A stretch of DNA of 64,000 bases from Leucosporidium creatinivorum (Eukaryota; Basidiomycota; Microbotryomycetes; Leucosporidiales; Leucosporidiaceae): assembly GCA_001600635.1 (NCBI GenBank), contig BCKL01000001.1, forward strand, positions 585,327-649,326, in the 5' to 3' direction. Under the pieces are notes generated by a model that did not search any database, was not told where the DNA came from, and saw nothing but the letters and a program-made list of their open reading frames with translations. Both the position numbers and the translations under genes were made by a program. Shown here one piece after another: positions 8,399 through 29,665 of the stretch. The stretch's first letter is position 1. Each line of letters starts with the position of its first letter.

Positions 8399-9631
8399 TC
8401 ACAGACATTGCTCTCCTTGCTCCCATTCGTTCCACTCAAGGCTGATCGAGCGCGCCTCGCACAGGGCTCTGATCAAATCCTCGTCCCTCTGCTCCCTTCG
8501 ACGGCTGGTCCAGCCGATCGAGTCACCCTCGACCCGCGCGTCGCCGAGCTGAGTCGAGTCGCCGAGCACCAGCTCGCAGAGGACGGGGAGGACTGCAAGG
8601 TCGGCGAGGGCTTCTTGTACGTAGCGACTTGATGCTTGGACCGTTCCGATGTCGAGAAACCGCAGGCTCGGAGGAAAGAAGGGCAAGAACGGCTCCTCTT
8701 CGTCGACCGCCCCTAGCCTGGGAGCATCATTAATCGTCGCAAAGTGCAGCGAAACGAGTGTGCGACAGGTGCTGACGGTGTAGCAGACCCCCTTGTAGCT
8801 TCCGTACCCCTGATCAACGCTTTGTGCGTACTCTAGCACCAGTTCGAGCGTGTGCAAGGCGACGAAGGGCGACAAGTCCCAGGCCTCGTCCTCGTCGGGT
8901 TTGCTGGGGATGGCAAGGGAGGTGAGGGAGGCCTGGGAGTTGTGGAGAGCGAAGAAGAGATGCTCTTGTTTGAGCTCGGCACCACTGAAGGCGTGGAGCG
9001 AGTTGAGTTGGAAGGAAGGTCGAGGGGTGTCGTCGGGGACATGTCGGTCGGAGTGGCTGGCGGAGAGGCCCCCGAGGTGATCCAGACCTGTGAGCGCACA
9101 GAGCGCCTCTAACCACTCTGGTGTTGGTATAGCCCCGTCGTTGTAGGCGAGTGAGCGAAGTTGCGAGCCGAATCGACCGAGCGCTCGGTTGCTGTGACCT
9201 TCCTCCGACGGCTCGAGGCGCAGGGCGCGAAGATTGGGACATTGACCACGTAGCTCATCCAAGATCTGAGCACAAATCTGGTCGCCGAATGGGTGTACTA
9301 GTACGTGCGGCACGAACATCTCAGCCTCTTCGACGTGAGCGCCGAGCTCTGGTCGCTCGGCGAGGGTCTGGCGAAGGCGGTAAGAGGAGTAGTTGAGGTA
9401 CCGCGAGATGGTGCTGTGCGAGAGAGTCTGTACTGAGTCTTGTCTCCTCGTATTGCTGATGGTGAAAGCGAGGGAGCGATACAGCTCGGCGCGAGCGAGT
9501 AGGAGGAAGGATTTCGAGGCGAGACAGCAGCGGGAGAGGGTGACCTTGTCGGGCCATCCACAGCGTTCGTCTCCCCAAAGCAGCTTGAGGATCATCGAGA
9601 CGATCTCGGGAGGGAGTTGTGGCTGCACCAT
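8399..9631 (-). CDS. F-box-like protein, copy C of a local family
   Basis: A single-exon protein of about 410 residues starting MVQPQLPPEIVSMILKLL. This LPPEI...IL..L opening is an F-box-like helix, followed by LSRCCLASKSFLLLARAELYRSL, the usual continuation in fungal F-box proteins. The rest has irregular leucine-rich segments such as CPNLRALRL, LRSLAYNDGAIPTPEWLEAL and PPSLRFLDIGTVQASSRYVQEAL. These suit a substrate-binding solenoid but do not form canonical LRRs. By analogy it would be an SCF ubiquitin-ligase adaptor; no substrate can be inferred. The Met at 9631 is chosen because conservation among copies B, B' and C becomes strong there. An upstream in-frame Met at 9712 extends into the leader. 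Its first 60 residues are almost identical to copy B' (25067-26305), while its middle differs. Confidence 0.75.
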   Translation of the reverse strand: MVQPQLPPEIVSMILKLLWGDERCGWPDKVTLSRCCLASKSFLLLARAELYRSLAFTISNTRRQDSVQTLSHSTISRYLNYSSYRLRQTLAERPELGAHVEEAEMFVPHVLVHPFGDQICAQILDELRGQCPNLRALRLEPSEEGHSNRALGRFGSQLRSLAYNDGAIPTPEWLEALCALTGLDHLGGLSASHSDRHVPDDTPRPSFQLNSLHAFSGAELKQEHLFFALHNSQASLTSLAIPSKPDEDEAWDLSPFVALHTLELVLEYAQSVDQGYGSYKGVCYTVSTCRTLVSLHFATINDAPRLGAVDEEEPFLPFFPPSLRFLDIGTVQASSRYVQEALADLAVLPVLCELVLGDSTQLGDARVEGDSIGWTSRRREQRDEDLIRALCEARSISLEWNEWEQGEQCL

Positions 9632-10384
9632 GGCGAGAGAGAGCGGACGAAGAGACAAAGGGCGGCGGGTGAGAAGAGAGAGAGAGAGCTCGACTGGGAG
9701 GTGCAAGTGCAAACGGTCAGCTCTGCCTTGCTATCGCTCTGCACAGAGCAGCTCACCTAGTCGACCTCAACAGCACGCACAGCGAGCAAGCGATCTCAGC
9801 GACTCCGAGCAGGGAAGCAGCAGCGACGAAGTCTCTGCACACGAAGTAGGAAGTCAGTTCTGCTCTCCCTACTCTGAGCTCTCTCCCTCCCACTCACCTT
9901 CGAGCTTTCAACGACTCGCCAAGCAAACAGCAGCTGAGCGGACGAGGCTTGAGAGTGACCGACGTGGAGGAAGCTGTAGGAGAGTGCTGAAGGGGTGTCG
10001 AGGTGCAGCAGAGGGTGGTAGAGCTTCCTTCTCGTCTTGTACGAGCTTTCCAGGTGAGCGAGCGAGTCGAGACGAGAAGACGATTGAACTGGAGGAGAGC
10101 AAGAGTAGAAACGAGCTCGAGACGGCCAAGTCGAGAAAAGGGAGGACCGAGCTCAGCTCAGCGAAGCAGTAGGATGCTGTATGACGTGAGAACCAAGCTC
10201 GACGTATCAACTTACTGATCAGCGACGCCGCTCTGTCCTCGCATGCCGACAGGGTTGTCTGCAGCATCGCCGAGCTCTCACTCGTCGTCGCTCGAGCCCT
10301 CGCCAGGCTCCACGAAACGCACTGAGCCAAACCTATCTATGCACATCAAGTACCAAGCACGTCACAGCGCTCCCTACCTCCACC
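9632..10384. repeat. duplicated F-box 5' leader (copy C) and 3' flank of the macro gene
   Basis: From about 9720 to 10170 the sequence closely matches, in the same orientation relative to the gene, the regions upstream of copy B' (26410-26960) and copy B (15430-15970). A marker is GCCAAGCAAACAGCAGCTGA at about 9918, seen in B' at about 26590 and as its reverse complement before B at about 15740. GTGAG-type donors and CTGAC/CAG-like acceptors inside it suggest a spliced leader transcribed on minus. The remainder to 10384 is the tail of the macro-domain gene, with no other feature visible. Confidence 0.6.
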
Positions 10385-12442: not shown

Positions 12443-13136
12443 ATGGTGAGTTCCTCGGTCGGGCTCACGTTCTCGCTCTCCCCCCCTTCGGCGTTCTTTC
12501 GCCTCAGCCCTTCCTTCCCGTTCGTGATCTCTCAGTATCTGCCACTAACGTCTTCGCTTCCCTACGCAGGCCGAAGTCAACCCCAAAGCGTTCCCCCTCG
12601 CCGATGCTGCCCTCACCAACCAAATCCTCGACTTGGTTCAGCAAGCCTCGCACTACAAGCAGTTGAAGAAGGGAGCCAACGAGGCTACCAAGGTGCGTCT
12701 CTTCCGCACTGAGCCTGCCGCACTCGAGCCAGTCACTGACTCCGTATCTCTGCGCCGAACAGACCCTCAACCGTGGTATCTCGGAGATCATCATCATGAC
12801 CGCCGGTTCGTCGCTCTCTGCCTCCTCTGCACCTCTACGGCAACTAACGCCTATTCTCCACCAGACACCGAGCCCATTGAGATTTTGCTCCACCTTCCCC
12901 TCCTCTGCGAGGACAAGAACGTCCCCTACGTCTTCGTCCCCTCCAAGACCGCCCTCGGCCGTGCTTGCGGTGTCTCGAGGCCCGTCATCGCCGCATCGAT
13001 CACCACCTCCGAGGCTCGCGAGCTCAAGGGCCAAATTGATACCATCAAGGTGAGCAGAGAGTCGCCCCGACGAGCTGAGCAGAGCTGACTCGCCTTTTCG
13101 CTTTAACAGAACGCCGTCGAGCGCCTCCTCATCTAA
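12443..13136 (+). CDS. SNU13: SNU13 / 15.5K L7Ae-family RNA-binding protein
   Basis: Snu13 binds kink-turns in U4 snRNA and box C/D snoRNAs and is a core part of the U4/U6.U5 tri-snRNP and of snoRNPs. Five exons are readable: 12443-12445 (the ATG alone), 12570-12692, 12763-12805, 12865-13049 and 13110-13136. The spliced protein runs [16 protein letters not shown]..., with the L7Ae signatures [19 protein letters not shown] and [19 protein letters not shown], then [17 protein letters not shown]. It ends NAVERLLI. It is about 126 residues, the normal size for Snu13. The RGISEII and RPVIAASI segments distinguish it from Nhp2 and from ribosomal L7Ae proteins. The exon 1/2 junction falls directly after the start codon. 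Its 3' flank was copied to about 28995-29160. Confidence 0.93.
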
Positions 13137-14028
13137 GCGATGTTCAGGCTGGTTGGTCCGCGATAGCGTTTCGAGCTCTTTGTTTGACGCGTGTGGCCGT
13201 TACCCCATCCCCTGGTGTGAATATTGGAAGGCGGGAGGAGGAGGAGCTCGGTGCAGGCCTTCACTGGTTTCGATATCTTTCTCTTCTTCCTACGAACTTC
13301 GTGCAGTACTCTAGTGTGCAAAGTGACCCCCTCCTTCTTTTGTTGGCGCCTACCAACCTGTAGCTCGTCGAGAGGATGATCGATATGACCAGAAAATGCT
13401 CGGCGAAGCGAACGCCGAGCTGGCCAGACTACCCAGCTGCTCGTCGAGAGAGACTAAGGCTACTCGGTACATGTCCACCGTGATTCTGTGTCGCAGTCGG
13501 CTAGCGCTTAGCTCACTTCAGCTCGGTGACCCCTCTCGATGGCTCGACTTCGTCCAGCCAGCGCGACTCTTGCTCTCCTGCGCTTCGCTCTCGCTTTCTC
13601 GACTCGTTCGCTCGCTCCGGAGACTCGTCATCGACCACCAGGGAGCTCGGACGCCCTCTACTGCACCTCGGCGCCCTTTCAGCGCTCTTCTCGAAGCACG
13701 CGTCGAACGCGTCGCGTTTGCAGCTACTTCTTCGCGACTCGTTCAGAGCTGAAAGGTAAGCATAGAGGGGATCGGAGGATTCAAGAGAACAGAACTGACT
13801 CTCGACGGCGTGTCTAGAGTGACTGCTGCTGCTGTCGCTGCTGTTCGGTCTCGTCGCCCAATCCCTCTCGCTCTTTTCGAGACCTGGCTGAGGTCAACTA
13901 GGTGCGCTTACTCTGCAGACGGCAGATAAGGATTGAGCTCACCCACCTCAATCTCCCAGGTCGGCTCGGCTCCTCTCCTCCATCCTCCTCCTTCGACCGA
14001 GGTCCTCCCTCCCTTCCCTCGCCATATC
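13137..14028 (+). repeat. left arm of inverted duplication: SNU13 3' flank plus F-box A leader
   Basis: The first part is the SNU13 3' region, including CGTGTGGCCGTTACCCCATC at about 13190. It recurs as the reverse complement near 29110-29150. From about 13380 the F-box A leader begins and matches 28322-28970 on minus. Inside the leader an open frame starting MLGEANAELARL at 13396 matches MLGEGSAELARL at 28937 in the other arm. CTGAC-like branch sites (for example near 13795) suggest that the leader is transcribed and spliced. No other gene is visible. Confidence 0.65.
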
Positions 14029-15231
14029 ATGCTACTCCTCCTACCGCCGGAGATCATCTCCACCATCATCGCTCACACCTCGGGAAGGGAGCGCCACCCT
14101 CCAAGCCTGCTGCCTCACGGCTAAATCCCTCCTCCCCTTCGCCCGCGCCGAGCTCTACCGCCGCATCGAGTTCCATATCCACCAAGCGTGGGGTCACGAG
14201 AACGTCACGACCCTGTCGGAGCACACATTTCTCCACTTCACTGGGCACTATAGCCACCTCCTTCGCAACACCCTCGTCTCCCAACCCGAACTCGGCGTCC
14301 ACGTCCGAGAGCTTCGCATCATCGTCAGCAGTCTTCACGGGCTCGGATTCGAGGATCAGATCACCGCGCAGATCTTGGACGAGCTCCGTACTCGGTGTCC
14401 AACCTCAGGGAGATCTGCCTTGGCGCAACTCATTACGGCCGCACCGACGAGACTGACCAAGCAGTCGCGCGGTTTGGACGACAGCTGCGCGTGCTCGCCT
14501 ACGACGAGGATCGCAGTTGGACGCAGGAATGGTGCAAAATGCTCTGTGCGCTCCCTGAGTTACAGCACATCCACGGCGTGTCCGACGGCGACCTTCCTGT
14601 CGAAGCAGCCATCCCGCCGACATTTCGCCTCAAATCCCTCCACAACTACTTCATCCCCACTCAAGACTTCCTATTCCACCTCCTTCATAACTCACACACC
14701 TTCCTCACTACTCTTGACATCCCTAGTATGAGCTGGGACGCTCGTGCTTGGGATTTGTCGCCCTTCGTCGCGCTCCGCTCCCTCAAGCTCATGCTGGGCT
14801 ACGGTGAGCCTGTCGGGCTATGCATCGAGCTCAACGTCGGACTGGGCTTCACCGTCGGTACATGTCTCAATCTCCTCTCGCTCACCCTCGGAATGGATCC
14901 CGATTGGCCCAGGCTGGAGACGCTCGCCGAAGACCGGGCCTTCCTCCATCTGCTACCTTCCTGCCTCCGCTCCCTCAACATTGGAGAGGTCCACGTCTCC
15001 GACAAGAATCTCCCGGAAGCCCTCGCCGACCCTACAATCCTCCCTGTCCTCCGTACTCTCGTCCTCGGCGATTCGACTCAAATCGACGACATGCGAGAGG
15101 AGAACGGTACGTCGACATGGGTCAGCGGTCGACGAGAGCAGACGGTACTGCGCCAAGTGAAGGAGTTGTGTGAAGCAAGGTCGATTTTCCTCGAGTGGGA
15201 CAAGTGGGCGCAAGGCGCGCGGGACTCATGA
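14029..15231 (+). pseudogene. F-box-like copy A, broken by two frame shifts
   Basis: The reading frame opens MLLLLPPEIISTIIAHTSG at 14029. Near 14090 it shifts: the homologous sequence ATLQACCLTAKSLLPFARAEL is in another frame, and the codons for about five residues present in A' are missing. The second frame runs to DELRTRCP at about 14400. There one base is missing (TGTCCAACC where A' has TGCCCCAAC), and the third stretch, NLREICLG onward, continues to the stop at 15231 (KWAQGARDS). No pair of GT-AG sites explains either shift. The remaining body keeps family segments such as AWDLSPFVALRSLKLML and LVLGDSTQIDDM. It is either a young pseudogene or carries assembly errors; the second shift is a single base and should be checked in reads. 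Confidence 0.72.
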
Positions 15232-16076
15232 GCGCGACCGGCGCCGAGGTGCTGGAGGGGCTGCTGTGAGTTTGTACTAGACGATGGGCCGCAGATATTG
15301 TCATTCGATACGATATTGTATGTCTGGTGCGATCAGTGGGCTCGCGGGAGAGAGGCGAGAGAGAGAAGCCGTCGTCGAGCCGTCGATTTAACGCCGAGGA
15401 GGAGTAACTGAACAGCTTGCCATGGCTATACCAGGGCAGAGAAGCAAGCGAGTGTGCTCTTTCACTGCTCGCTGCTCCTGCACCTTCTTCAGCTCGACTT
15501 CGAGCAGCTTCGAGCTGAGCTCGGTCCCTCCCCTTCTCGACTTGGCGGTCTGGAACTCGCCTCCGCTCTCTCCCTCCTACGCTTCATTCGTCTCTTCGTC
15601 TCGTCTCGCTCGCTCGCCTGGAAAGCTCGTACAAGACGACAAGGAAGCTCTACCACCCTCTGCTGCACCTCGACAAACTCTCAGCACTCTCCTACAGCTC
15701 CCTCCACGTCGACCGCTCTCAAGCCTCGTCCGCTCAGCTGCTGTTTGCTTGGCGAGCCGCCGGAAGAACGAAGGTGAGTGGGAGGCAGAGAGCTCAGAGC
15801 AGGGAGAGCAGAGCTGACTTCCTACTTCGTGTGCAGAGAACTCGTCGCTGCTGCTTAGCTGCTCGGAGTCGCTGGAATCGCTCGCTTGCTCGCTGCGCGT
15901 GTCGCTGAGGTCGAATTGGTGAGCTACTCTGGGCAAAGGGGGAGGGGGAGGAGTAGATAGATAACCGTCCTGCCTTGCAGCTGTTCGCTCGAGCCCTCTC
16001 CTTCCCGTCAACATCGACTTCCTCCCTCGCCCACCCCCACTCCGACTCCGAGCCTCCTCGCCCGCTCTCTCTCGCC
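15232..16076 (+). repeat. 3' flank of copy A and spliced-looking leader of F-box copy B
   Basis: From about 15430 to 15970 this is the plus-strand counterpart of the leaders of copies C (9720-10170, minus) and B' (26410-26960, minus). Candidate introns are visible: a GTGAGT donor near 15774 with an acceptor at about 15835, and an acceptor CTTGCAG just before 15980. It also resembles the copy A leader more distantly, for example in the shared GCACCTCG...CTC order, so A and B look like an older tandem pair. Nothing else is seen. Confidence 0.55.
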
Positions 16077-17303
16077 ATGGTACAGCCACAACTCCCTACC
16101 GAGATCGTCTCGATGATCCTCAAGCTGCTATCGGACAACACGCCTCATGGATGGCGCGACAAGGTCACCCTCTCCCGCTGCTGCCTCGTCTCCACGTCCT
16201 TGCTCCCACTCGCTCGCGCCGAGCTGTATCGCTCCCTCACTTTCAGCATCGCCAATCCTCAACTACAGGCCAAGGTGCAGGCTCTCACAGAGAGGTCACT
16301 CCACCAGTTCCTCGACCATGCATCCTACCGCCTTCGCGAGACCCTCATCTACCGACCCGAGCTCGGCGGTCACGTCGAAGAGGCTCGTGTCACTGCATAC
16401 TCGGCGGGACACCCTGTCGCGGATCAGATCTATGCACAGATTCTGGATGAGGTCCGTGGTCGATGCCACAACCTCCACGCCATCCGTCTAGACACATCGG
16501 AAGAAGGTCACAGCAGCCGAGCGCTCGCCCGATTCGGTTCGCAACTTCGCTCGCTTCGCTACAAGGACGGCTTGATACCTACACCGTCGTGGTTCGAAGT
16601 CCTTAACAAGCTCACCGGTCTGGAGGACATCTTCGGGCTCTCTGCCAGCCGCTCCGACTTCACAGCCCTGGACGCTCCTCGACCGAACTGCCAACTCAAG
16701 TCGGTCCACGCTTTCAAAGGCGCTCAGCTCAAGTCGGACCTACTCTTCCTTATCCTACGCAACTCGCACGCCTCTTTGAAGTCCCTCACCATCCCTAGCT
16801 ATTCCGCCGAAGGAAAAGCGTGGGACCTCTCGCCGTTCGTCGGCTTGCAAAGGCTCGAGCTGGTCTTAGAGCTCGCACAGGGCATCGAGGAAGGGTCCGG
16901 AAACGACATGGGAGTAGGTTACACCGTTGGCACCTGTCGCGCACTCGAGTCGTTACGGTTCGCGAGGCACGACGAGGGTCCCAGACTCTGGACGGCAGCC
17001 GACGAGGTCCCCTTCCTCCGTATCCTTCCACCAACCCTGCGCTTCCTCGACATTGGGACGGTTCAGGCGTCAAGCACCTACGTACAAGAAGCCCTCGGCG
17101 ACCCTGATGTCCTTCCCTCCCTCCGCGCCCTCACCCTCGGCGACTCTACGCAAACTGGCGACTCGTGGTACGCTGGGAGAGGGATGTCCAGCTGGAGCAG
17201 CTGCCACAGACGGGAGGCGGACAAGAAGGCGATCGAAGAGTTGTGCCGAGTTCGCTCCATTCAGCTCGAGTGGGAAGAGTGGAAGCAGGGCAGGCGACGC
17301 TGA
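16077..17303 (+). CDS. F-box-like protein, copy B
   Basis: A single-exon protein of 408 residues. It starts MVQPQLPTEIVSMILKLL, the F-box-like helix shared with C and B', then LSRCCLVSTSLLPLARAELY. The body has leucine-rich segments, including RCHNLHAIRLDTSEEGHSS and FGSQLRSLRYKDGLIPTP. It ends EWEEWKQGRRR. The middle and C-terminal parts are very close to copy B', including ASLKSLTIPSYSAEGKAWD against ASLKSLAIPSYTAEGKAWD. The F-box region differs more from B' than C does. An upstream in-frame Met at 15975 lies in the leader next to a likely splice acceptor and is less probable. A role as a substrate adaptor of an SCF ligase is assumed only from the F-box-like start. Confidence 0.75.
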   Translation: MVQPQLPTEIVSMILKLLSDNTPHGWRDKVTLSRCCLVSTSLLPLARAELYRSLTFSIANPQLQAKVQALTERSLHQFLDHASYRLRETLIYRPELGGHVEEARVTAYSAGHPVADQIYAQILDEVRGRCHNLHAIRLDTSEEGHSSRALARFGSQLRSLRYKDGLIPTPSWFEVLNKLTGLEDIFGLSASRSDFTALDAPRPNCQLKSVHAFKGAQLKSDLLFLILRNSHASLKSLTIPSYSAEGKAWDLSPFVGLQRLELVLELAQGIEEGSGNDMGVGYTVGTCRALESLRFARHDEGPRLWTAADEVPFLRILPPTLRFLDIGTVQASSTYVQEALGDPDVLPSLRALTLGDSTQTGDSWYAGRGMSSWSSCHRREADKKAIEELCRVRSIQLEWEEWKQGRRR

Positions 17304-17558
17304 CGAGGAGCGCCGAGGAGCTTGAGTCGAAGAGGGATGAGGAGGAGGCGGAAGCATAGGGCTTGCTGTGTCTGTACTACATCACCAGTGACAACCCGCT
17401 CGATCGACCGCGAAGAGGAGAGGCGAGATTCGACCTTCTCTGAGCTGGCTTCGCGGCGAACGCTGCCTCTCCAAGTCTCGATTGAGCGGAGGCCAAGCAA
17501 GCAATTCACAAAGAGCACAGAAGTACGAAAGAAACAAGCAAGAGATACACAAGCGACC

Positions 17559-20500
17559 CTACTTCGACGCCCACGGCCAGCCCTTCTTCAACTGACTGAC
17601 CAGCTCGATCCCTGCCGAGAACAAGACTGCCCTCCTCGCGCTCACCGCCTTCCTCCCCTTCTTCCTCTCAATCGCCTCCTGCGCCTCACTCGTCCCCGCC
17701 AACACAATCACATCATCATCGTAGCTCCACACCTCCTTGGCCACCCACTTCTCCAACTCGGCGTACTCGGCCGTGCCCTCGGCGGGACGGCGGGTGGGCG
17801 AGAACCACGTGCAGGCTTTGTCGAGGATCTTGAAGTTGGTGGGGCAGGAGACGGAGAGGTAGAGGGCGTGGGGACCGCGTTTGGGAAGGGAGTAGAGGTT
17901 GCGGCGGAGGGCGAGCTCGTCTTTGAGGGTGAGCGTCGCGGCGCTGGGAGTGGAGGCAGCGGGAGCGGGAGCGGGAGTGGGCGCAGGCGAGGCGGAGACA
18001 GAAGCGGAGGGTTTCCTGGCCGAGGCGGTGAGAGAAGCGCGAGGCTTCTTGCCGGTAGGAGGAAGGTGGTCGTCGACGCCGGCGCTGCCGTCGGTGCTGT
18101 CTCGAGCGCGCTTGCGAGCCGTCGAGGTAGTGGTGGTGGTGGAAGTAGCGATGGGACGAGAAGGAGTGATGTTAGGGAGGCGAGAAGGGACGGCAGAGGA
18201 TCCTCGAGTCGCCTTCTTGGCAACCGGAGCAGGAGCGTCGGACTCGACGGCGCGCTTCTTGCCCTCCTTGATGGCGGCCATCCTTCGAGCTTCGGCTTGC
18301 GCAACAACAGCAGCGGCCTCGATAGCCTCCTGCCTCCTCTTGGCTTCGGCAGCCTGCTCGCCGTGACGACGAGCGAGTCCCTCCATCTCCTTCTGCGCTT
18401 GACGGTGACGGCGTTCCTCCTCCTCCTCCTGCTTCTTCTTCTCGGCCTCGACCCTCCTCTGCTCCACCTCCTCCGCCACCCTCTGCGCCTCCTTGACCCT
18501 CTCCTCCGCCAAAAGTCGCAACCTCGCTTGCTCCTTCTCCCTCGCCTTCCTGCTATCCTCCTCGGCGGCGGCGGCCTTCTCCCTCTCAACCCTCTGGCGC
18601 TCCACCTCAACAGCAGCCTTCTCAGCAGCGATCCTGCTCCTCTCCTGCTCCTCCAGAGCGATCCTCTCCTGCTCCTCCTCGAACTTCAGCTGCTCATCCA
18701 CCTCGTAAACGCCGTTGACGAACGCCACCTGAGCCGCCGTGAGGGGGAGCCAGTCCGAGCTGACTCGCTCGAGTACGACGACCGGCTGGACGACCTCGGG
18801 CTGAGGCTCGACGCCCTCGGAGCGGAGGAGCTCCTCCATCCTCCGGTCGTCGGAATCGGGGAGCGAGTGCGAATCGTCGTCCTCGGCCTGCTTCTCGACG
18901 ACGGGAGCGGGGACGACGGTAGAGACGAGTTGAGCGCTGGTGGTGGTAGGAGCGGGAGTGGGAGCAGGAGCGGGAGCGGGCTCGGGAGGGTATTGGTCGG
19001 CCTTAATGAAGGGCGAGGGGAGGGAGCGTTGACGCTGCATCTCGGCGGCGGCGAGTGCGCTGGGATCGCTCTCCTCGACGTTCTTACTATCGGCGTTGAC
19101 AGCGACGTTGGGAGCGGCAGTGACGACGACCTTGGGATCGAGGCTGCTGTGCTGGGTCGAAGGTTCGGGGTCGGTCGAGTGCGTCGAGGCCGGAGGAGCG
19201 GAAGCGGCGGCGACGGGCTGCTGCTGCTGCTGCTCCACTTGGACGATATCGAGGCGGGAAGTAGTGATGGCGACTTCGATGGGTTGAGACTTGCGGGATT
19301 GGGAGTGAGAGGAGGATGGAGGTGTAGGCTTGGGCGTCGGAGGGGAGGGGTTCTGCGCGGTGGGAGAGGCGAGGGGAGCGGCGGAGGCTCTGCGAACGAG
19401 GGAGTGGGTCAGCGTACAGGATCGAGCGAGCTGTGAGGAATGCGACGTACCCGTGAGGCTGAAGTGGCGCGGCCTTGTCGATCTGGTCGGCGTTTCCCTT
19501 CTGCGCCTCGGCGACGGTCACAACCTCCTTGACCCTCTTCTCGACGACGACGACCTCGTGAGGGTGCTTATCAACGACCTCCCTATCCTTGCCCTTGCTC
19601 TTCCTTGCCGCCTTAGCCTTCTCCTCCGCCGCCTTCGCCGCCTCCCTCTCCTCGCGCGCGCTCTTCCTCGCCTGGTCCCTGTAGATCTCAGCGACTCGGA
19701 CGCCGACACGAGGGAAAAGGCTAGCCCTATTCGTGACAAAATGGGCCTTCCACTCTTCCTCCGAATGTTGCGGGTGCTGCGCGAGTCAAATCCGAGTCAG
19801 CTCGGCGCGCGCTCTTCTCGCGCACCGTCCTCCTTCACTTACGGAGAGGTCAAGATGCTTCCAAACCTCGGTCCTGTCCAGCTCCTTGATCTCCGCTACA
19901 GCGAGCTTCTGTACGATCAAGTACTCGTCCTCGTCGGTGAAGACGGGGTTCGGCTGGCGCGGTTCCTCATCCTCGGCGTCCTCATCTTCGTCATCCTCGT
20001 CCTTGTCCTCAGCGGCAGCAGCAGGAGCACTGATCGACTTCCTCCTTTCCGACGAAGGGCCGGCTACCGGCTGACGATCGTCGACGACTTTGGCCTTCTT
20101 GGCCTTAGGCGTCTGGACCTCAGGCGAGGAGGACGAGCGGAGGACGACGGGCTTGTTCTTGCCGTTGGAGATGGCGGTCGAAGTAGAGGCGCGACGAGAT
20201 GGTTCGGCGTTGGTAGAGGAGGGTCGAGGAGCTTTGGGCTTGGGTTTCGGAGTGGAAGCCGGCGCGGCGTTGGCGCTGGTAGAAGGCCTGCGCGCGGCCT
20301 CCTTCCTCTCCTTCTTGAGGCGGGCGAGTCGTGCGTGGACGGCATCATCGACTTTCTTCTCGCTGTTGTTGTCTCGGCGGAAGGTCTGCCAAGAAATCGC
20401 CGTGTGCTCGGGGTACTGCGAGAGCCGAGACGAAGCAAGGTCAGCGAGCGGCGCCGAGAGAGAGCAAAGAGAAGCGAGAGACTCACGTCCTCGGCCAAGT

Positions 20501-21134
20501 TGCGGTAAGCAAACTCCTTCGACTCGTCCCGCTCCTCTGCATCGGCCAAGTAGCGAACGAGTCGCCCGAGGTCCTTGGCGACGAAACGAGTCCTCGGCCT
20601 CTTCTCCTCTTCGCTCTGCTCCTTCTCCTCCTCCTCATCTTCCTCCTCGCTCTCCTCCTCGGTCGACGGCTTGGGCGAAGGTTCCCTAGCGCGCTTCTTG
20701 CCCTTGTCCTTGCTCTTGGGAGCGGGCGAGGCGGAGGCGACCTGGGCGGCGGCGGCGATGGCTGCCTTCTTGGCCTTGCTCCTCTTGCGCTTGATATTGG
20801 CGATACGGCGGTCAATGTCCTCGCGACCTGTCCTCCTGTAGTGCTCCCTCCAGGACTCCTCGGTGTGGTGCGGGTGCTGTGAGAGAGAGAGCGGCGCGTG
20901 AGCGGGGGGGCGTCTGGCGGCGAGAACAGGCTGTAGGACAGCAGGCTCACCTTCTGGGCAAATTCTTTGTACAGAGAAGGGCGGAGACGGGTGTCTTGAG
21001 GATGCTTGACGAGGAATTCGGCCAGCAGCTGGCGATCCTCGCTTGTGTACTCGACTCGCCTGATTGTTTGGGCAGGAGAGAGGGTGAGAGGGAGGTACAG
21101 AATGCTGTAAGAGATGTACTCACCCTCCAGCCAT
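17559..21134 (-). CDS. RAP1-like protein with three Rap1-type Myb modules
   Basis: Probably a telomere- or chromatin-bound protein of the Rap1 family. Exon 1 gives MAGG and splices into RVEYTSEDRQLLAEFLVKHP. Three modules follow the pattern of an acidic start, a helix, then an H/YP-x-H(T/S)-x(2-3)-W-x(3)-(Y/F) end. Module 1 closes HPHHTEESWREHYRR (about 20870). Module 2 opens FVAKDLGRLVRYLADAEE and closes YPEHTAISWQTFRRDN (about 20360). Module 3 opens FTDEDEYLIVQKLAV and closes HPQHSEEEWKAHFVTN (about 19750). Basic, disordered linkers separate them. The long last exon (17559 to about 19390) holds a Glu/Arg/Lys-rich coiled coil of about 150 residues. It then has a Ser/Pro/Ala linker and a folded-looking C-terminus, ALRRNLYSLPKRGPHALYLS through the end at GWPWASK. 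I see no N-terminal BRCT domain, unlike yeast and human Rap1. The C-terminus may correspond to the Rap1 RCT but I cannot show this. Confidence 0.78.
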
Positions 21135-21310
21135 GTCGTGCTACAGAAGCGGCGACTGAAGCTGAGCTAGAAGTGAGACGTTCAAGTCCAAGAGACGTCG
21201 CGCTCTCACGGCTCTGACTTCGACCGTTTCGCTGCTCGCTAGACCCGCCGCTCTCGCCCAAGCTGGCTACCACTCGGCGCTTATCGGGGCTCAATGCTTC
21301 TCAGCCAGGA
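21135..21310. promoter_or_regulatory. short divergent promoter, RAP1-like / shugoshin
   Basis: Only 176 bases separate the two start codons, so the genes must share a promoter region. Co-regulation of two chromosome-associated proteins is plausible but not shown. Confidence 0.45.
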
Positions 21311-23699
21311 ATGGTAGTGAATCCTACATACGAGGCTTACGATAATTGTACGTCGTTACAGCCCTCTCCCTCGCGCTTTCAGCTTGTTGAACGACCAGCT
21401 CACGCTTCTGTGCGCTTTACAGTCAAGAAGAAGCATCTGGCGCAGAATAGGGAGATTATACACAAGAATACAGAGCTATCCAAGTGAGCCCCACCCTCAG
21501 ATCTGCTGCAGAAGTCGCTCTCACCGCCAGACCAAACAAGCCGGCCTGTTGATCGCTCGTCTGACCTGGTTCCGCAACCTACAGACTCAACGCCGAGCTC
21601 AACCGAACCGTCACATTACTACGAGCAGAACGGTTATCCCTCAAGGGCTCCCACTTTCAGCTCGAATGCGAGAAGGCTAGCTTGAGGACCGCGCTCGAGC
21701 GCGCCGAGTCGAGGGAGAGGGAATTGCTGGCTAGGCAGGAAGGGCAGGTGAGAGGGAGTTGGGGCGGAATGGATCAGGATCAAGTAGAGGTGAGTCTCTG
21801 CTGCCTCGTGCTTCTCTCGCGCCTTGCTGATCCTCGGACTCGCCGAGCAGACGATGCGCCGCTCGCTCGCCAGCGCTATCGCAACTCTGAACGCTTGCGG
21901 TTCTATCCTGCCTCCCGCCGGAGACGAGCTCAGTCGACCAAGCTTTGTCGGTTCATCACCCGCTACCCGTGAGCCCTCGTCCTCGGCTCTCTACTCGCCG
22001 AGCTGACCCTCGCTTCCGCAGCTACCCCTCCCACTCCCGCCTCGGCTTCGAGTTCCACCTCCTCAACCGCTTCTCTACCACCCAACGCCAACGTCTCGGT
22101 ATCAAGACGACGGTCACTAGCGAGTCGAGCAGCCAGGGAGACGATGACTGCTCGGCCGGATCTGAGCTACATTAGCGAGGGCGGCGAGGGGAGCGCCGAG
22201 ATGGACGATGGAGGGGACGATGATGGTGGATGGAGAGGACCTGTGCTCGAGGGGTGGGCTTCTCCTCTACTTCTACGCCGAGACGTCTTCGCTGACCCTC
22301 CGACTTCCTCGTATAGCCTCCGCGAGGAATCGCAACCCTCCTCGCAACCTCCTTCTGCCTTCTCCTCCCCCGGCGCGGCGCCCTCAAGCACACACTACAC
22401 CTCTCCCGCTCCCGCGCCCGAACCTACCCCCGTCTCACCACCACCACCTCTCACCTCCTCCCCGAACCCCACTCTCGCCGCTCTCTCCCTGTCCTCCTCT
22501 TCCAAACCACCACCGAAGCCCCGCACTACCGCACCGCCTCCAGCACCCTCCTCCACTTCCAACCAGACCTCAGCCGACCGACGACCAGCGAGAAGGGTCT
22601 CGGGGCTTGTTCGACCACCACCGCCGCCTGCTGTCGCTGCGCCGAGAGGAGAGGGAAGGGCGAGGATCAGCGAGTTGGAGGAGGAGGATGGTGCGAGGAA
22701 AAGCGCGAGTGCGAGCTATAAGGGCAAGGAGAGGGAGGCGTTGAGTGAGGTGCAGGTGCCCTCCAGCTCAGAAGTCGAACGAGCAGGCGTGAGGAGGACT
22801 ACCAGTAGACAGAGGCTCTTGGAGATGTCGTCCAGCTCTTCTGAGGGTGAAGAGGAGCAGCAAGAGGAGGAGGAGGAGGATCCCTCAGCCGACGAGTACG
22901 AGCCCGAGATCCCCGCTCGACCACCGACGCCTTCGCCGCCGAGACCTTTGCGACCGCCGCCTGCCTTGTCATTGTCGGCGGTGGGGTCGGGGAGTAAGAG
23001 TAGGAAGGTGCCGACGGAGACGGTGGCGGGAGCGGCGAGCAAGGTCAATGCGAGGAAGAAGGTCATCGAGTTGGGAGCGGTGGATGAGGAAGGTGAGTCG
23101 TTGCGCATGTTCGTCACGGAGAGAGTCCGCTGACTCTACTCGCCCACACAGCGACATCATCAGGAAGGTCTTCCTCGCGCACGGCAGATATCTCCGACGA
23201 GGCAGCGCTGTCCGCCGAGCCGAGCGAAGGTCGTCGAGCTCGCAAGTCGGTCAACTACGCTCTGCCCAAGCTCAACACGTGCGTCTTCTTTCGCCAGCGC
23301 GCTTCTTTTCTTCTCTGCGCTGACCCTTGCTCTCTTCACTCCAACAGCAAGATGCGCCGCCCCGAAGACTACGTCCCCCTCACCTCCGTCCAAGCGGGCA
23401 AAGCTCCTCGCAAATCGACCCTCAAGCCCGTCCACTCCTCCACCTCCTCTTCTTCCTTCAACTCCCTCCCCCGCTCCAGTACAGGGCCCGTCAAACCCCT
23501 CTCAGCGAGCGGAGGAACACCAACACCGAGCACTGCTGCCTCCGAACGAGCCGAAGGCAGCGAAGATGATGAGGAGCCGGATGATGTCCTGCCGCCGAGG
23601 AAGAGCAAGGCGGGTCAGGAATTGGAGGAGAGGAGGAGGGAGAGGGCGCTGGCTGCAGGAGCGGCGAAGATTGGGAGGAGGCATTCGGTCGCCGTCTGA
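21311..23699 (+). CDS. SGO1: shugoshin
   Basis: Shugoshin protects centromeric cohesin by recruiting PP2A. The protein starts MVVNPTYEAYDN at 21311. It soon enters the conserved coiled coil KKKHLAQNREIIHKNTELSK, spliced to LNAELNRTVTLLRAERLSL and on through ERAESRERELLARQ; this is the PP2A-binding dimer helix. A long Ser/Pro-rich middle follows, with an acidic run near residue 380 (EEEQQEEEEEDPSADEYEPE). The C-terminal shugoshin basic motif is clear after the last junctions: GRRARKSVNYALPKLNTKMR then RPEDYVPL. This motif binds phosphorylated histone H2A. The first exon is too short to stand out on its own and its start was set by reading upstream in frame. The end is at KIGRRHSVAV. Confidence 0.9.
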
Positions 23700-23889
23700 T
23701 TGAGGGTGAAGCTGTTTCGTTTTGGCTTATTCATGGGCTGGTAGTGTGATTTATTGGGACCTATCATTCGTTTCCTAATGACCTACAGACACTGGAGAGC
23801 AGGCTCGGATTTCGACCTCAGCGATTCGCCGAGGTTGCGTACGCGTAGCTCGTGGTTCGTCTCCTTCGTCTCTCTCGTCCAACCTCACC

Positions 23890-24908
23890 ATGAGCAACCA
23901 GCCAGCAGCAGCCGATTCTGCACCTCAATACTCATCTCTCCCGCTCCTGCGCACCTCGATTCGCGTCACTAACCTCGTACAAACCCTCACCGCCTTCTCC
24001 TTCACCACTTTCCTCGTCCTGCACCTCTCTGCGCCACTCGCCGCCATTTTGGGAGGCGAGGATGCCGCTAATGGGGTTATGCTTGTCGGGAGGGAACTGT
24101 ACCAGGGAAGTTTGAGCGAGAAGCTGCTGGTCTTTGGGAGTGCGATTGGACATGTGCTTAGCGGAGTGGTGGGGAGGGGATTGAAGACGGCCGAGAGGAA
24201 TCTGAGGAGGACGAAGAGGAGGACTGAGTTGCGGGAGGTGACTAAAGGTGAGTTCTGAATGAGCTACAGAGGAACGCCGAGCTGATTTCGGACCCGTTCG
24301 CAGCCCTCGCCGAAGCTCAAGGAGACGAACTGCCGTCGCTGGGGCATGAGAAGCATCCCACCGCATCGACGCTCCTCAACGTGGATTCCACCCTGGAGCC
24401 CTCATCACCTCTTTACGACACGGACTCGGCCCTCGCCTCCTCCCTGCCCATCGTCGGCGCTCCCTCGCTCATCCCTCCCTTCACCCTGCACCACATCACC
24501 GGCTACCTCCTCCTCATCCCACTCTTCCAACACCTCCGTCTCCACCGCTTCATCCCCCTCTCTCACTCCCTCGACTCCATCTTCTCCTACTCCTTTGTCG
24601 CTCACTCCCTCCGCTCCTCTCGCTACCGCTTTGCCTCCGTTCTCGGATACGCTACACTCACTGGCTTGACCGCATACCATGCCATCACTGGTATTCGAAT
24701 CCTATGGGATCCTACTGCGCCGAGGGGACTGGGGAAGAGGGGGACCGAGGGCAAGAAGGGCTCGCCGAGCAGCTGGCAGGTGGTTGCTGCTGGATTGGTT
24801 GCGGGAGTGGGGCTGGGAGCGGTGAGGATCGCGACTAGTGGAGTAAAGGGACCCGAGTGGATTGGAAGGAAGTTCGATAGGGCGTTGAGCGTAGGCTGGG
24901 GATTCTGA
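23890..24908 (+). CDS. Mcp1-like mitochondrial membrane protein (DUF1691)
   Basis: Two exons join at TKALAEAQGD (intron about 24250-24301). The protein has several membrane segments. One is LVQTLTAFSFTTFLVLHLSA; the next region includes KLLVFGSAIGHVLSGVVGRG; later come TLHHITGYLLLIPLFQHL, FASVLGYATLTGLTAYHAI and VVAAGLVAGVGLGAV. The HVLSG, HHITGYLLLIPLFQHL and YHAITGIRILW pattern, with histidines inside the helices, resembles the Mcp1 transmembrane domain and the succinate-dehydrogenase membrane-anchor fold. Yeast Mcp1 is a mitochondrial outer-membrane protein that partners Vps13 in lipid transfer. The assignment rests on this helix/His pattern and is not certain. Confidence 0.7.
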
Positions 24909-25066
24909 GCTTGGTCGTCGTAATCTAGCCACTCGTCTCGCAGCTCGCCAGGTGTGCTTGTGCGAGTCGGCTGTTTGGATAGTCACTTTACAGCACAGAC
25001 AAAGCTATCGCCAAACCTTTGCAAGCTCAGCAACACCACATCGACCTCCAAGCTCCTCGGCGCTCC

Positions 25067-26305
25067 TCACTCAGTTCGCTCGCCTTGCTTCCACTTCACC
25101 CACTCGAGCTGAATGGAGCGAACTCGGCACAGCGCTTCGATCGCCTTCTTGTCCGCCTCCCCTCTATGGCAGCTGCTCCAGCTGGACATCCCATCCCCAA
25201 TGTACCACGCGTCGCCAATTTGGGTGGAGTCGCCGAGGGTGAGGGTCCGGAGGGAGGGAAGGACATCAGGGTCGCCGAGAGCTTCTTGTACGTAGGTGCT
25301 TGACGCCTGAACCGTTCCGATGTTGAGGAAGCGCAGCGTTGGTGGAAGGATACGGAGGAAGGGGACCTCGTGGGCTGCCGTCCAGAGTCTGGGAGCATCG
25401 TAGCACGTCGCCAATTGCAACGACTCGAGTGCGCGACAGGTACCAACGGTGTAACCTACTCCCATGTCGTTTCCAGACCCTTCCTCGATGCCCTGTGCGC
25501 GCTTTAAGACCAGCTCGAGCTTTTGCAAGGCGACGAACGGCGAGAGGTCCCACGCTTTTCCTTCGGCGGTATAGCTAGGGATCGCGAGGGACTTCAAAGA
25601 GGCGTGCGAGTTGTGTAGAACAAAGAAGAGTAGGTCCGACTTGAGCATGGCGCCGGTGAAGGCGTGGAGCGACTTGAGTTGGCAGTTCGGGGGAGGAGCG
25701 TCCGAGGCCGTGAAGTCGGAGCGGCTGGCGTAGAGCCCGAAGATGTCCTCCAGACCGGTGAGCTTGTTGAGGAGCTCGAGCCATTCCGGTGTAGGTATCG
25801 CGCCGCGCTCGTAGGAGAGCGAGCGAAGTTGCGAGCCGAATCGGGCGAGCGCTCGGCTGCTGTAAGTTGTGTAATCTTCTTCCGATGTCTCCAGGCGGAT
25901 GGCGTGGAGGTTAGGGCAGCAGCCACGAAGCTCGTCCAAGATCTGGGCGCCGATGCAATCCGCGAAAAAGTGCGCCACCGAGTGTGCAGTCACGTGAGCC
26001 TCTTCGACGTGACCGCCGAGCTCGGGTCGGTAGATGAGGGTCTCGCGAAGGCGGTGTGAGGCATGGTTGAGAAAACGGCGGAGTGACGTCTCTGTGAAAC
26101 CCTGCAATCTGTCCTGTCGTCCAGCATTGGTAATGTTGAAAGTGAGGGAGCGATACAGCTCGGCGCGAGCCAGGGGGAGGAAGGATTTCGAGGCAAGGCA
26201 GCAGCGGGAGAGGGTGATCTTGTCGGGCCATCCGCAGCGTTCGTCTTCCCAAAGCAGCTTGAGGATCATCGAGACGATCTCGGGAGGGAGTTGAGGCTGG
26301 ACCAT
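25067..26305 (-). CDS. F-box-like protein, copy B' (mosaic of B and C)
   Basis: A single-exon protein of 412 residues starting MVQPQLPPEIVSMILKLL and ending KWKQGERTE. The first 60 residues (LLWEDERCGWPDK, LASKSFLPLARAELYRSL) follow copy C almost exactly. From about residue 90 to the end it follows copy B, for example TLIYRPELGGHVEEA, then AQGIEEGSGNDMGVGYTVG and PPTLRFLNIGTVQASSTYV. The 3' flank again matches C. It lacks stop codons or shifts and looks intact. It is the inverted partner of copy B in the duplicated block. An upstream Met at 26407 is in frame but lies in the leader. Confidence 0.75.
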   Translation of the reverse strand: MVQPQLPPEIVSMILKLLWEDERCGWPDKITLSRCCLASKSFLPLARAELYRSLTFNITNAGRQDRLQGFTETSLRRFLNHASHRLRETLIYRPELGGHVEEAHVTAHSVAHFFADCIGAQILDELRGCCPNLHAIRLETSEEDYTTYSSRALARFGSQLRSLSYERGAIPTPEWLELLNKLTGLEDIFGLYASRSDFTASDAPPPNCQLKSLHAFTGAMLKSDLLFFVLHNSHASLKSLAIPSYTAEGKAWDLSPFVALQKLELVLKRAQGIEEGSGNDMGVGYTVGTCRALESLQLATCYDAPRLWTAAHEVPFLRILPPTLRFLNIGTVQASSTYVQEALGDPDVLPSLRTLTLGDSTQIGDAWYIGDGMSSWSSCHRGEADKKAIEALCRVRSIQLEWVKWKQGERTE

Positions 26306-27121
26306 GGCGAGAGAGAGCGGGCGAGGAGACAAAGGGCGGCGGGTGAGAAGAGAGGGAGGGAGCTCGACTGGTAGGTACAAGTCGGCACGGTCAGCTTGCG
26401 TGTCCATCCCTCTGCTCAGGGTAGCTCACCTAGTCGACCTCAGCGATACGCGCAGCGAGCGAGCAATTCAAGCGACTCCGAGTAGCGAAGCAGCAGCAGC
26501 GAGGTCTCTGTACACTCAGTAGGAGGTCAGCTCTACTCTCCCTGCTCTGAGCTCTCTACCTCCCACTCACCTCGAGCTTCCAACGACTCGCCAAGCAAAC
26601 AGCAGCTGAGCGGACGAGGCTTGAGAGCGGTCGACGTGGAGGAAGCTGTAGGAGAGTGCTGAAGGGGTGTCGAGGTGCAGCAGAGGGTGGTAGAGCTTCC
26701 TAGTACGCTTAGCTGAGCTTTCCAGCCGAGCGAGCGAGTCGAGACGAGAAGACGAGTAAAGCGCAGGAGAGCAAGAGTCGAGCGAACTCTCGAGGTGGCA
26801 AGTCGAGAAAGGGAGGGGACCGAGCTCAGCTCGAAGTCGGGCTGAAGAAGGTGCAGGAGCAGCGAGCAGTGAAAGAGTACTTTCGCTTGCTTCTCTGCCC
26901 TGGTACAGCCATGGCACGCCCTCCAAATACTCCTTCTCGGCGTTGAATCGACGGCTCGGCGACCAATTCGGCCTCAATCTCTCGCCTCTCCTTCACATGC
27001 CCACCACCGATCGCACAAGACATACTACATCGTATCGAGTAGCAATCTCTTCGCCCCATTGTCTAGCACACGCCCACAGCAGCCCCTCCCCCGGCGCTCT
27101 GCAACCTCACCCTCGCTCGCC
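26306..27121 (-). repeat. leader of copy B' and 3' flank of copy A'
   Basis: About 26410-26960 is the right-arm counterpart of 15430-15970 and of 9720-10170. It is closer to the copy C leader than to B: both have CAACGACTCGCC and GAAGGGGTGTCG where B differs. The rest (26960-27121) is the 3' flank of copy A'. No separate gene is seen. Confidence 0.55.
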
Positions 27122-28321
27122 CTAGTTCCACTTCTCCCACTCGAGGTAAATAGACCTCGCCTCACACAGCTCCTCCACCTGACGGAGTACCGTTTCCTCC
27201 CTTCGAGCGCTCGTCCAATCCATAGGAAACTCGTTGTCGCCGTACGGGTCGCCCACCTGTGTCGAATCGCCGACGAACAGCGTTCGGAGGGACGGCAGGA
27301 TGGTAGGATCGGCGAGGGCGTCCGACAGGGTCTTGTCGGAGATGTGAATTGCTCCGAAGTCGACCGTACGGAGAGTGGGGGGTAGGAGATGAAGGAAGGG
27401 CTTGTCGTCGGCGGTTGTCCCCAGCTTCGGCCATTGGTAGTCAGTTCTGATCCCGAGGGAGACGAGGTTGGGACACGACCCGATGGTGAAGAGCACTCCG
27501 CTGTCGTAGGGACCTAGTTCAATGGGCTCACGGGCCGCCAGCAGGAGGTCGAGTGAACGGAGCGCGACGAAGGAGGACAAGTCCCAGGCGTATCCATCGG
27601 TGGTCTGAGTGGCGATGTCGAGAGCTGTGAGAGTAGTATGCGAGTTTTGGAGGAGGAGGAGGAAGAAGTCCTCGTCGAGTTCGTCCAAGCCGCAGAAGGA
27701 GGTGAGCTGAATGGCGGGCGGCGTTACTTCGTCGCTAGGGAGTTGACCACATGTGACTCGGTGAAGACGTTCCAGGTTGGGGAGAGCAGAGAGCATGTCG
27801 AACCAGACCTTGGTCCACTTGCGATCGTCCTCGTAGCTGAGCCCGCGAAGCTGCGAACCAAAGCGAGCGACCGCCTGGTCGGTCTGATCGTGTCCTTCGT
27901 TGCTCTGCCACAGGCTAAGCTCTGTCAGGTTGGGGCATCGCGTACGAAGCTCGTCGAGTAGTTGTGCGGCAACTCGATCGTCTAATCCGAGCACGTCGTT
28001 GCTGATGTAGATGCGGACCTCCTGGATGTGAGCGCCGAACTCAGGTCGCCAAGAGAGGGTGTCGCGAAGGCGGTGCCCGTGGTTTCCGAGGAAGTGGTGG
28101 ATGGTCGACTACGTCACAGCTGTGATGGCTCCTTGAGACCGTTCTACATTGACGGAGAAGCTGATTCGGCGGTAAAGCTCGGCGCGGGCGAAGGGGAGGA
28201 GGGCTTTGGTCGTGAGACAGCAGGCCTGGAGAGTGGCGCGCTGATCTGCAGAGACTTGATGTCTTCCAGGGATGTAGGAGATGATGGTGGAGATGAGCTC
28301 CGGCGGTAGGAGCAGGATCAT
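27122..28321 (-). pseudogene. F-box-like copy A', interrupted by an in-frame stop
   Basis: The frame opens MILLLPPELISTIISYIPG at 28321 and includes the F-box-like continuation ATLQACCLTTKALLPFARA. It meets a TAG at 28109-28111, about residue 71, directly after AITAVT. The same frame continues without shift through STIHHFLGNHGHRLRDTL and then LLDELRTRCPNLTELSL to the stop at 27122 (YLEWEKWN). Aligned with copy A, the TAG stands where A has a glutamate codon (TLSEHTF), so a single G-to-T change explains it. A shorter product could start at the Met at 27994. Unlike copy A it has no frame shift. It could be a recent pseudogene, a truncated gene or, less likely, a readthrough case. Confidence 0.7.
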
Positions 28322-29165
28322 GGCGATTTAGAGGGAACGGAGGGAGGAGCTCGGTCGAAGGAGGAGGTTGGAGCCGAGCCGACCTGGGAGGGTAGAGTGG
28401 GTGAGCTATATCCTTCTCTGCCGTCTGCTGAGGAAGCGCACCTAGTTGGCCTCAGCAAGGTCGCTTAAAGAGCGAGGGGATTGGGCGACGGGGCCGAAAG
28501 CAGTAGCAGCTGTACACACAAGTCGAGAGTCAGCTTTGATTTCCTGTATCCTTCTTGAAGATTCTCTGCTCACCTCCCAGCTTCGAACGAGTCGCGAAGA
28601 AGCAGCTGCAAACGAGACGCGTTCGACGCGTGCTTCGAGGAGAACGCTGAAGGGGCGTTGAGGTGCGGTAGAGGGTGTCCAAGCTCCCTGGTAGTCGATG
28701 ACGAGTCTCCGGAGCGAGCGAACGAGTCGAGATGGCGAGAGCGAAGCGCAGGGAAGCAAGAGTCGCGCTGGGCTCGAGAGGGAAGTCGAGCCGTCCAGAG
28801 GGGTTACATCGCTGAAGTGCGCTGAGAGCTGACTGAATACGAGAGGCAGACTCGGCAGACACTTGTCGCGTAGTGTTAGCGTCTTTCGGCGAGCAGCTGG
28901 ACAATCTGGCCAGCTCGGCGCTCCCTTCGCCGAGCATTCTCTGGTCATATCGATCATCCTCTCGACGAGCTACAGGTTGGTAGGCGAGAACGAAAGAAGG
29001 AGGGGGTCACCTGCACACTACAGTACCGCACAAAGATCGTAGGAAGAAGAGTGGACGATATCGAAACCAATGAAGGCGTGCACCGAGCTCCTTCTCCTCC
29101 CGCCTTTCAATATTCACACCAGGGGATGGGGTAACGGCCACACGCGTCGTGCACAAAGGAAACTG
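28322..29165 (-). repeat. right arm end: F-box A' leader and a copied SNU13 3' flank
   Basis: About 28440-28970 is the inverted counterpart of the copy A leader (13380-13890). About 28995-29160 is the inverted counterpart of the SNU13 3' flank (13150-13330), here with no SNU13 gene beside it. The match ends near 29160, which sets the outer breakpoint of the duplication. Confidence 0.7.
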
Positions 29166-29214: not shown

Positions 29215-29665
29215 GCGAGGAGGGGCAGATGAAATGAGGCCTGGTCGGCGACGGCGACTCCTGCTCCGGCTCCGATGGCGGACGTGGGGTTTGACGAGGT
29301 TGGGGACGAACCGCATGCTACTAGAATATCCAAGGCTTTGGTATATTATAATGTTGAAGTAACCGAGCGAATCACGGTAACTTATATTAGCTTCAGAGCG
29401 TCGGCGAGGGAGATTAGGCGAACGAAGCAACTCACTCCGTTGCCTGTGGGATTCGTGGAAAGAGCAGGAGCCTATCAGTAATGAACGGAGCGGTAGGACA
29501 GCGCCGAGAGCAACACGCAGCTCTCCACAGCTGTAGAAACGGGCTGTGAAGTGCCCCCTTGGTGAAAGGACTCGTCGGCTGGATCTCCCAAGACTGGCTG
29601 AGCATCTCTCAAGTTCGGTCGCCTCCGAGTTGAGCGACGAGCCCTTCTCGATAGAGCTGGAGCAC
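29215..29665 (-). pseudogene. deleted fragment of the MFS sugar transporter
   Basis: About 29240-29560 matches 51390-51720 of the intact transporter, with near identity over 29318-29395, where both read TATATTATAATGTTGAAGTA. About 29605-29655 then matches the transporter N-terminus (53405-53460, encoding SSIEKGSSLNSEA). The 1.7 kb between these parts in the intact gene is missing. Introns are retained, so this is a DNA-level copy and not a retrocopy. The start ATG is lost (CACGTG in place of the ATG context). It lies directly outside the inverted duplication, in the same orientation as the parent gene. Confidence 0.75.

Follow-up and report, generated by a model that had tools for sequence, protein, structure and literature searches.

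How can parts of a single inverted repeat appear to be of two different ages? The question is raised by a 64,000-nt stretch of the basidiomycete Leucosporidium creatinivorum, positions 585,327 to 649,326 of contig BCKL01000001.1 (C1 below; assembly GCA_001600635.1, genome 27.7 Mb in 63 contigs, GC 0.60), which is the window analysed here. In this window, a block of two F-box-like genes, A and B, each behind its own 5' leader, recurs in opposite orientation on the other side of a spacer. The arms are a mosaic of closely and distantly similar DNA, both A genes are broken, and the leaders are shared across a gene family and are depleted of ATG. These features are probably the outcome of an old inverted duplication of the A-B block that ectopic recombination later turned into a mosaic; the leader of the family would be under selection while the gene bodies behind it diverge.

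An inverted repeat of uneven divergence

When the window was aligned with itself by BLAST, the two arms (Table 1) paired over 4210 columns at 77.8% identity (E=0), each 4.1 kb long and each carrying A leader, A, B leader and B in identical order, so that two long reverse-complement copies with one gene order, as in an inverted segmental duplication, are present. An earlier note on this DNA had claimed such a duplication from the letters alone, and its gene order and its four arm ends, each at most 70 bases from the self-BLAST ends, agree with the alignment. The percent identity along the arms, which that note had proposed to follow, confirmed the repeat and proved uneven, a property that had gone unremarked. 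The arms differ by 827 substitutions among 4050 aligned sites, which in practice excludes that one of them is an assembly duplicate. A third copy comprises just the B half and was absent from the earlier note; it is 76% identical to the right arm by self-BLAST, and the match stops exactly where leader exon 1 starts (10159 and 26832).

A mobile element, or a repeat altered by repeat-induced point mutation (RIP), would be repeated, dispersed and found in both orientations, as these copies are. Used as a genome query, however, the left arm gave matches above 1 kb only at the right arm and the third B copy, the apparent introns described below speak against retrocopying, and the raised TpA/ApT and lowered GC of RIP are both missing (TpA/ApT 0.76-0.85 in the arms versus 0.72 in the window; arm GC 0.59-0.60). 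This origin is therefore scarcely credible.

Penalised segmentation of the 4050 aligned sites divided the arms into blocks of 84.6% (13186-14164), 64.4% (14165-15240) and 85.2% (15241-17324) identity; a softer penalty gave six segments, and 20 of 20 permutations at that penalty gave one. The low block coincides nearly exactly with the coding body of A, while the A leader and the start of the F-box fall in the first block. Between A-left and A-right, the change point lies 136 nt past the ATG, with a log-likelihood gain of 40.5 against a permutation maximum of 9.6. Both A copies are broken, A-left by a 20-nt deletion relative to A-right plus another frame slip, and both B copies and the third copy are open. 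The earlier note had not remarked on the damage to A.

The synonymous distances tell the two genes apart. In the codon comparison, which the frame-broken family gene m715 entered with its first 870 nt only, the proportion of synonymous differences (pS) is 0.199 (0.154-0.245) for B-left/B-right and 0.507 (0.444-0.572) for A-left/A-right, with separate intervals, and it is 0.45 between B and the third B copy. The corresponding synonymous distance (dS) of A-left/A-right, 0.85, approaches the 0.99 of either copy versus M1, a paralog at C1:580 kb. Because the ratio of non-synonymous to synonymous change (dN/dS) is 0.40 for A, most of its divergence would have arisen under constraint, before the A genes broke. 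The A-B intergenic DNA is 82% identical between the arms, in line with B rather than with A.

One duplication of uniform age, with identity differences due to selection only and dead A genes drifting fast, would be compatible with the broken state of both A copies and with leaders that look constrained. Under such a history, the pS of A and B should nevertheless agree, whereas they are 0.51 and 0.20; moreover, the dN/dS of A places its divergence mostly before breakage, and the intergenic DNA sides with B. A single event of one age is a poor fit to these distances, and is improbable.

Table 1. Features of the inverted repeat, its leaders and its genes in window coordinates
Feature	Position	Strand	Basis or remark
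Left arm (A then B)	13186-17324	+	Self-BLAST, gene order and segmentation
Right arm (A then B on minus strand)	25049-29148	-	Self-BLAST, gene order and segmentation
Spacer, 7.7 kb	17325-25048		Between arms; MCP1_TM open reading frame (ORF) and weak Rap1_C match inside
Discordant block, 64.4% between ~85% blocks	14165-15240	+	Segmentation of aligned arms
A-left 5' leader	13514-14028	+	Exon 1 start from alignment to B leaders; splice-site signals
A-left leader parts (predicted)	Exon 1 13514-13755, intron 13756-13817, exon 2 13818-13901, intron 13902-13959	+	69 nt to ATG
A-left coding region, broken	14029-15231	+	Frame reading, alignment
B-left 5' leader	15512-16076	+	Splice-site signals, alignment
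B-left leader parts (predicted)	Exon 1 15512-15773, intron 15774-15836, exon 2 15837-15918, intron 15919-15980	+	96 nt to ATG
B-left F-box-like gene, open, 408 codons	16077-17303	+	ORF reading
B-right F-box-like gene, open, 412 codons	25067-26305	-	ORF reading
B-right 5' leader, predicted two-intron layout as B-left	26306-26832	-	Splice-site signals
A-right coding region, broken	27122-28321	-	In-frame TAG at 28111-28109
A-right 5' leader, predicted two-intron layout as A-left	28322-28819	-	Splice-site signals
Third B-half copy: leader (exon 1 start 10159) and open 410-codon ORF 8402-9631	8287-10159	-	Self-BLAST, ORF reading

A shared, almost ATG-free leader

All 16 family leaders that were read have a two-intron layout, predicted from splice-site signals alone, and are almost free of ATG. 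They fall into two types, of which type I includes the leaders of the window. In seven B-type leaders, exon 1 measures 240-262 nt, intron 1 63 nt, exon 2 78-83 nt and intron 2 55-69 nt, and the ATG follows after a short distance; in some type I copies, the acceptor is displaced by a few bases. A-type and B-type leaders share a BLAST alignment of only ~130 nt. A 33-mer from the leader core occurs seven times in the genome at up to three mismatches, always at C1 595-763 kb, and its reversed control does not occur at all. Nine type I leaders hold two exonic ATGs, both in A-type copies, against 26.7 expected from base shuffling.

Across groups, the exons of these leaders are better conserved than the introns and the proteins. 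When the window trio is set against four distant copies, exon 1 is 75-83% and exon 2 72-83% identical, compared with 43-59% for the introns (shuffled intron 1, realigned, gives a mean of 36% and a maximum of 63%) and 25-36% for the proteins, among which the broken m715 gene was represented by its first 300 residues only. Inside the distant four, the proteins are only 25-37% identical. In both leader types, 53-58% of ungapped columns are invariant in exons 1 and 2, versus 30% and 27% in the two introns of type I and 46% and 27% in those of type II. Intron 1 is 87-95% alike within the window trio and 65-89% within the distant four, and in the trio it is more alike than exon 1 (83-86%).

A coding role of the leader was rejected: the length of 42 of 53 and of 30 of 39 exon gap runs is not divisible by three, and eight ungapped runs were tested for codon phase, with no bias among their variable sites. 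A known structured RNA was likewise rejected. At the gathering score, Rfam gave no match in the window, and RNAalifold on spliced leaders gave a z-score of +2.45 for type I, which are thus less stable than their column shuffles, and of -0.99 for type II.

Type II leaders allow the same pattern to be examined elsewhere; the leader of the genes at C1:1242 and 1267 kb matches 17 genome places (16 on C1). Twelve matches, the query counted, exceed 270 nt at 74% or more, and the strong ones lie at C1 1.0-1.43 Mb; seven of the twelve long matches, plus the locus L051 for the gene at 1267 kb, were read. Seven aligned leaders have the two-intron layout of type I and no exonic ATG against 23.1 expected. 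Their splice sites are mostly canonical, the exceptions being GC at intron 1 of II_1087 and II_1361, TT at intron 2 of II_1087 and an intron 1 without AG in II_1114.

Two pairs among these genes were compared. In the pair at C1:1350 (-) and 1361 (+) kb, 750 kb from the window arms, a sharp identity edge again lies just inside the coding start: the DNA match ends 32 nt beyond the ATG and the change point falls 33 nt past it, with a log-likelihood gain of 93.5 versus a permutation maximum of 9.7. Here, the leader exons are 93-94%, intron 1 98% and intron 2 65% identical, while the coding pS is 0.63 over 234 codons of partial genes and the proteins, along the ~240 codons read, share 44% identity. 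The F-box genes at C1:1242 (+) and 1267 (-) kb, 97% identical over 2.7 kb in a match clipped by the query end, are discordant in the opposite sense, with a leader of only 88% inside the longer 97% match and differences clustered in the 5' part of the leader. Located at C1:1241773-1244500 (+) and C1:1264679-1267390 (-) (L042 and L051), they form a much younger inverted F-box duplication, at most ~20 kb apart.

These data bear on whether purifying selection on a promoter or 5' untranslated region (5'UTR) alone, with fast-evolving bodies and leaders free of recombination, would be enough. The better conservation of leader exons than of introns in both types, together with the lack of a reading-frame signal, speaks for it; a leader at 88% within a 97% match, and an intron 1 more alike than exon 1 in the trio, speak against it. 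In a test of incompatibility akin to the pairwise homoplasy index (PHI), none of 1000 permutations of the type I leaders was as low as the observed value, at any of three window sizes, and this low local incompatibility also counts against it. The conflict between the ages of A and B, too, is left unexplained by selection alone. Such an explanation is possible but doubtful.

The F-box family across the genome

The genes behind the leaders belong to a large family. PF12937 (F-box-like) was found at E<=0.1 in six of eight members scanned (best 5.9e-6) and was missing from the other two, so an N-terminal F-box is present in the family. Against the PDB, a family profile matched FBXL2 (E=0.0026) and FBXL17 (E=0.04). 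B-right alone gave no match among solved structures at E<=1, A-right reached 22.7 bits for LRR_4 versus a Pfam cut-off of 27, and an AlphaFold model from three window proteins was unusable (predicted local distance difference test 30.8). A further, distant F-box-like ORF lies in the window at 41689-42795 (+), identified by a weak match.

A whole-genome protein search at E<=0.001 gave at least 76 matches, 43 on C1, 10 on C22, 9 on C9, 5 on C32 and 9 elsewhere; these counts are lower bounds in which some matches are pieces of one gene and the query favours C1 relatives. C1, only 6.7% of the assembly, and the three other named contigs thus hold 67 of the 76 listed matches. Six further relatives, absent from the earlier note, lie within ~150 kb outside the window, and more are found along C1. 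One of the family, the M1 paralog (L025:4387-5598, C1 ~579713-580924), is open and has ATA at the family start position, with a short leader-like element ~0.45 kb upstream.

The 26-mer CTTGCTCTCCTRCGCTTCACTCGTCT, which both leader types carry towards the 5' end of exon 1, is present at 40 genome places (up to three mismatches; reversed control 0), 18 on C1 and 22 on other contigs. When the lists were compared by hand, 16 of the 18 on C1 had a same-strand listed F-box match within 0.6 kb downstream, as against two of the 22 elsewhere that stood just upstream of one, both on C22 and within 0.7 kb.

Weighing duplication, exchange and selection

Taken together, the A/B age conflict, the sharp identity edges, the reverse discordance of the 1242/1267 pair and the type I incompatibility test argue for exchange between paralogs. 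It is proposed that a two-gene block (A, B) of an F-box family with bodies resembling leucine-rich repeats (LRR), concentrated on C1, was duplicated in inverted orientation long ago, and that ectopic recombination, most likely in the form of gene conversion, later moved patches from one paralog to another. The outer flank, the leaders, the A-B intergenic DNA and gene B would then look fairly young, and the body of A would carry an older ancestry, either retained or acquired. The leader may act as a common promoter/5'UTR module, maintained by selection, along which ribosomes can scan as far as the F-box start. Behind it, the LRR-like bodies would pick the substrate of an SCF ubiquitin ligase and could diverge or be swapped. 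Of the two halves of this proposal, selection on the leader has the firmer support, from the exon/intron contrast and the ATG depletion; exchange is the other.

Several observations weigh against it. Conversion is read from one genome, and the introns are drawn from splice-site signals, with some copies lacking a canonical site. Intron 2 does not track intron 1 (65% in 1350/1361, 64% in B-left/B-right), which implies that the tracts are short or that intron 1 is itself constrained, as its 46% invariant columns in type II would allow, and intron 1 of A-left/A-right is only 68% identical. For type II, the incompatibility test is weak (p 0.027, 0.054 and 0.094 at the three window sizes). The F-box is weak in the window copy used as query (15.6 bits versus a cut-off of 24.3). 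Because 20 of the 22 26-mers off C1 have no listed F-box match shortly downstream, a portion of the leader may serve more generally in this fungus as a promoter or 5'UTR element.

A bolder version, which is unlikely, is a modular F-box system in which the shared, selected, spliced, ATG-free leader and the F-box start form a fixed cassette, and recombination at a boundary just inside the coding start swaps bodies or decouples them. If true, new substrate specificities would arise under a single control, and inverted duplications would keep appearing as a side product.

The earlier note had also warned that arms of this kind could drive inversion of the spacer or fold-back instability. A live switch, in which recombination of the arms turns the 7.7-kb spacer around from strain to strain, would draw on arms that are inverted and 4.1 kb long, on 22 identical runs of at least 25 nt and on a mosaic that suggests past exchange. 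The arms are nevertheless 22% diverged, only two identical runs reach 50 nt and none 100 nt (the longest is 60 nt), Pfam scans of 11 unspliced spacer ORFs matched no recombinase, and the evidence comes from one assembly. The inverted geometry of that warning therefore stands while the predicted risk is weak; a live switch is very unlikely, and past exchange makes a rare spacer inversion conceivable.

Flanking and spacer genes

The left arm starts 49 nt past the stop codon (13134-13136) of a gene whose exon at 12864-13049 matches the solved Snu13 structure (2.7e-28), in agreement with the name SNU13 given before. Among the spacer genes named in the earlier note, the Mcp1-like gene corresponds to one ORF, 24381-24905, barely over the Pfam cut-off for MCP1_TM (22.8 bits versus 22). 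For the RAP1-like gene, the only sign is a weak match of ORF 17562-19238 (-) to Rap1_C (E=0.016) at 15.7 bits, below the cut-off of 24.2. No shugoshin emerged from those spacer ORFs that were scanned in unspliced form, which is weak evidence, as introns were left in.

Just beyond the right arm, 29217-29661 is 81-92% identical to 51364-51717 and 53389-53459 on the same strand. Since the ORF at 51 kb matches Sugar_tr (E 2.6e-12), the piece seems to be an incomplete duplicate of a sugar transporter gene; searched against the genome, it found no places beyond those at 51-53 kb.

Comparison with known systems

Duplicated genes usually lose non-coding similarity first. The reverse order is seen here, with leader exons ~80% alike in front of proteins down to 25-37% identity. 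Common 5' ends with variable bodies are known from the upstream classes of var genes, and the likeness extends to leader classes that belong to particular clusters, with type I at C1 595-763 kb and the strong type II matches at C1 1.0-1.43 Mb; the proteins here differ in being F-box/LRR-like and without a known antigenic role.

Large F-box families occur also in nematodes and plants. Among fungi, 210 F-box genes are annotated in Flammulina (PMC7567395), and Microbotryum is reported as depleted in F-box domains (PMC4469406). The likeness to such large families lies in the many divergent paralogs, here with 67 of 76 matches on four contigs; the difference is that these genes have in common a leader, apparently spliced and almost free of ATG, whose similarity persists after that of the bodies has faded. 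In the literature searched, which comprised titles, abstract openings and passages of PMC4469406, PMC8893723 and PMC7567395, no report of fungal F-box genes with such a leader was found, which falls short of proving absence. A large fungal F-box family with this leader is a place to test common regulation with diversifying target recognition.

Sex-chromosome palindromes likewise have inverted arms with exchange. Human Y palindrome arms, however, exceed 99.9% similarity (PMC3723533), whereas the arms here, though uneven and sharp-edged, are patchy at 77.8% and far from the ~99% or more of a palindrome maintained by conversion. At the level of contigs, a mating-type region was also rejected, since STE3 was found only on C25 and Homeobox_KN only on C24. 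Interlocus gene conversion in Caenorhabditis likewise homogenises patches between diverging paralogs (PMC3966223); the shared patch here is mainly an untranslated leader plus the start of the F-box. Inverted repeats in F-box clusters of the present kind may be mosaics rather than single events.

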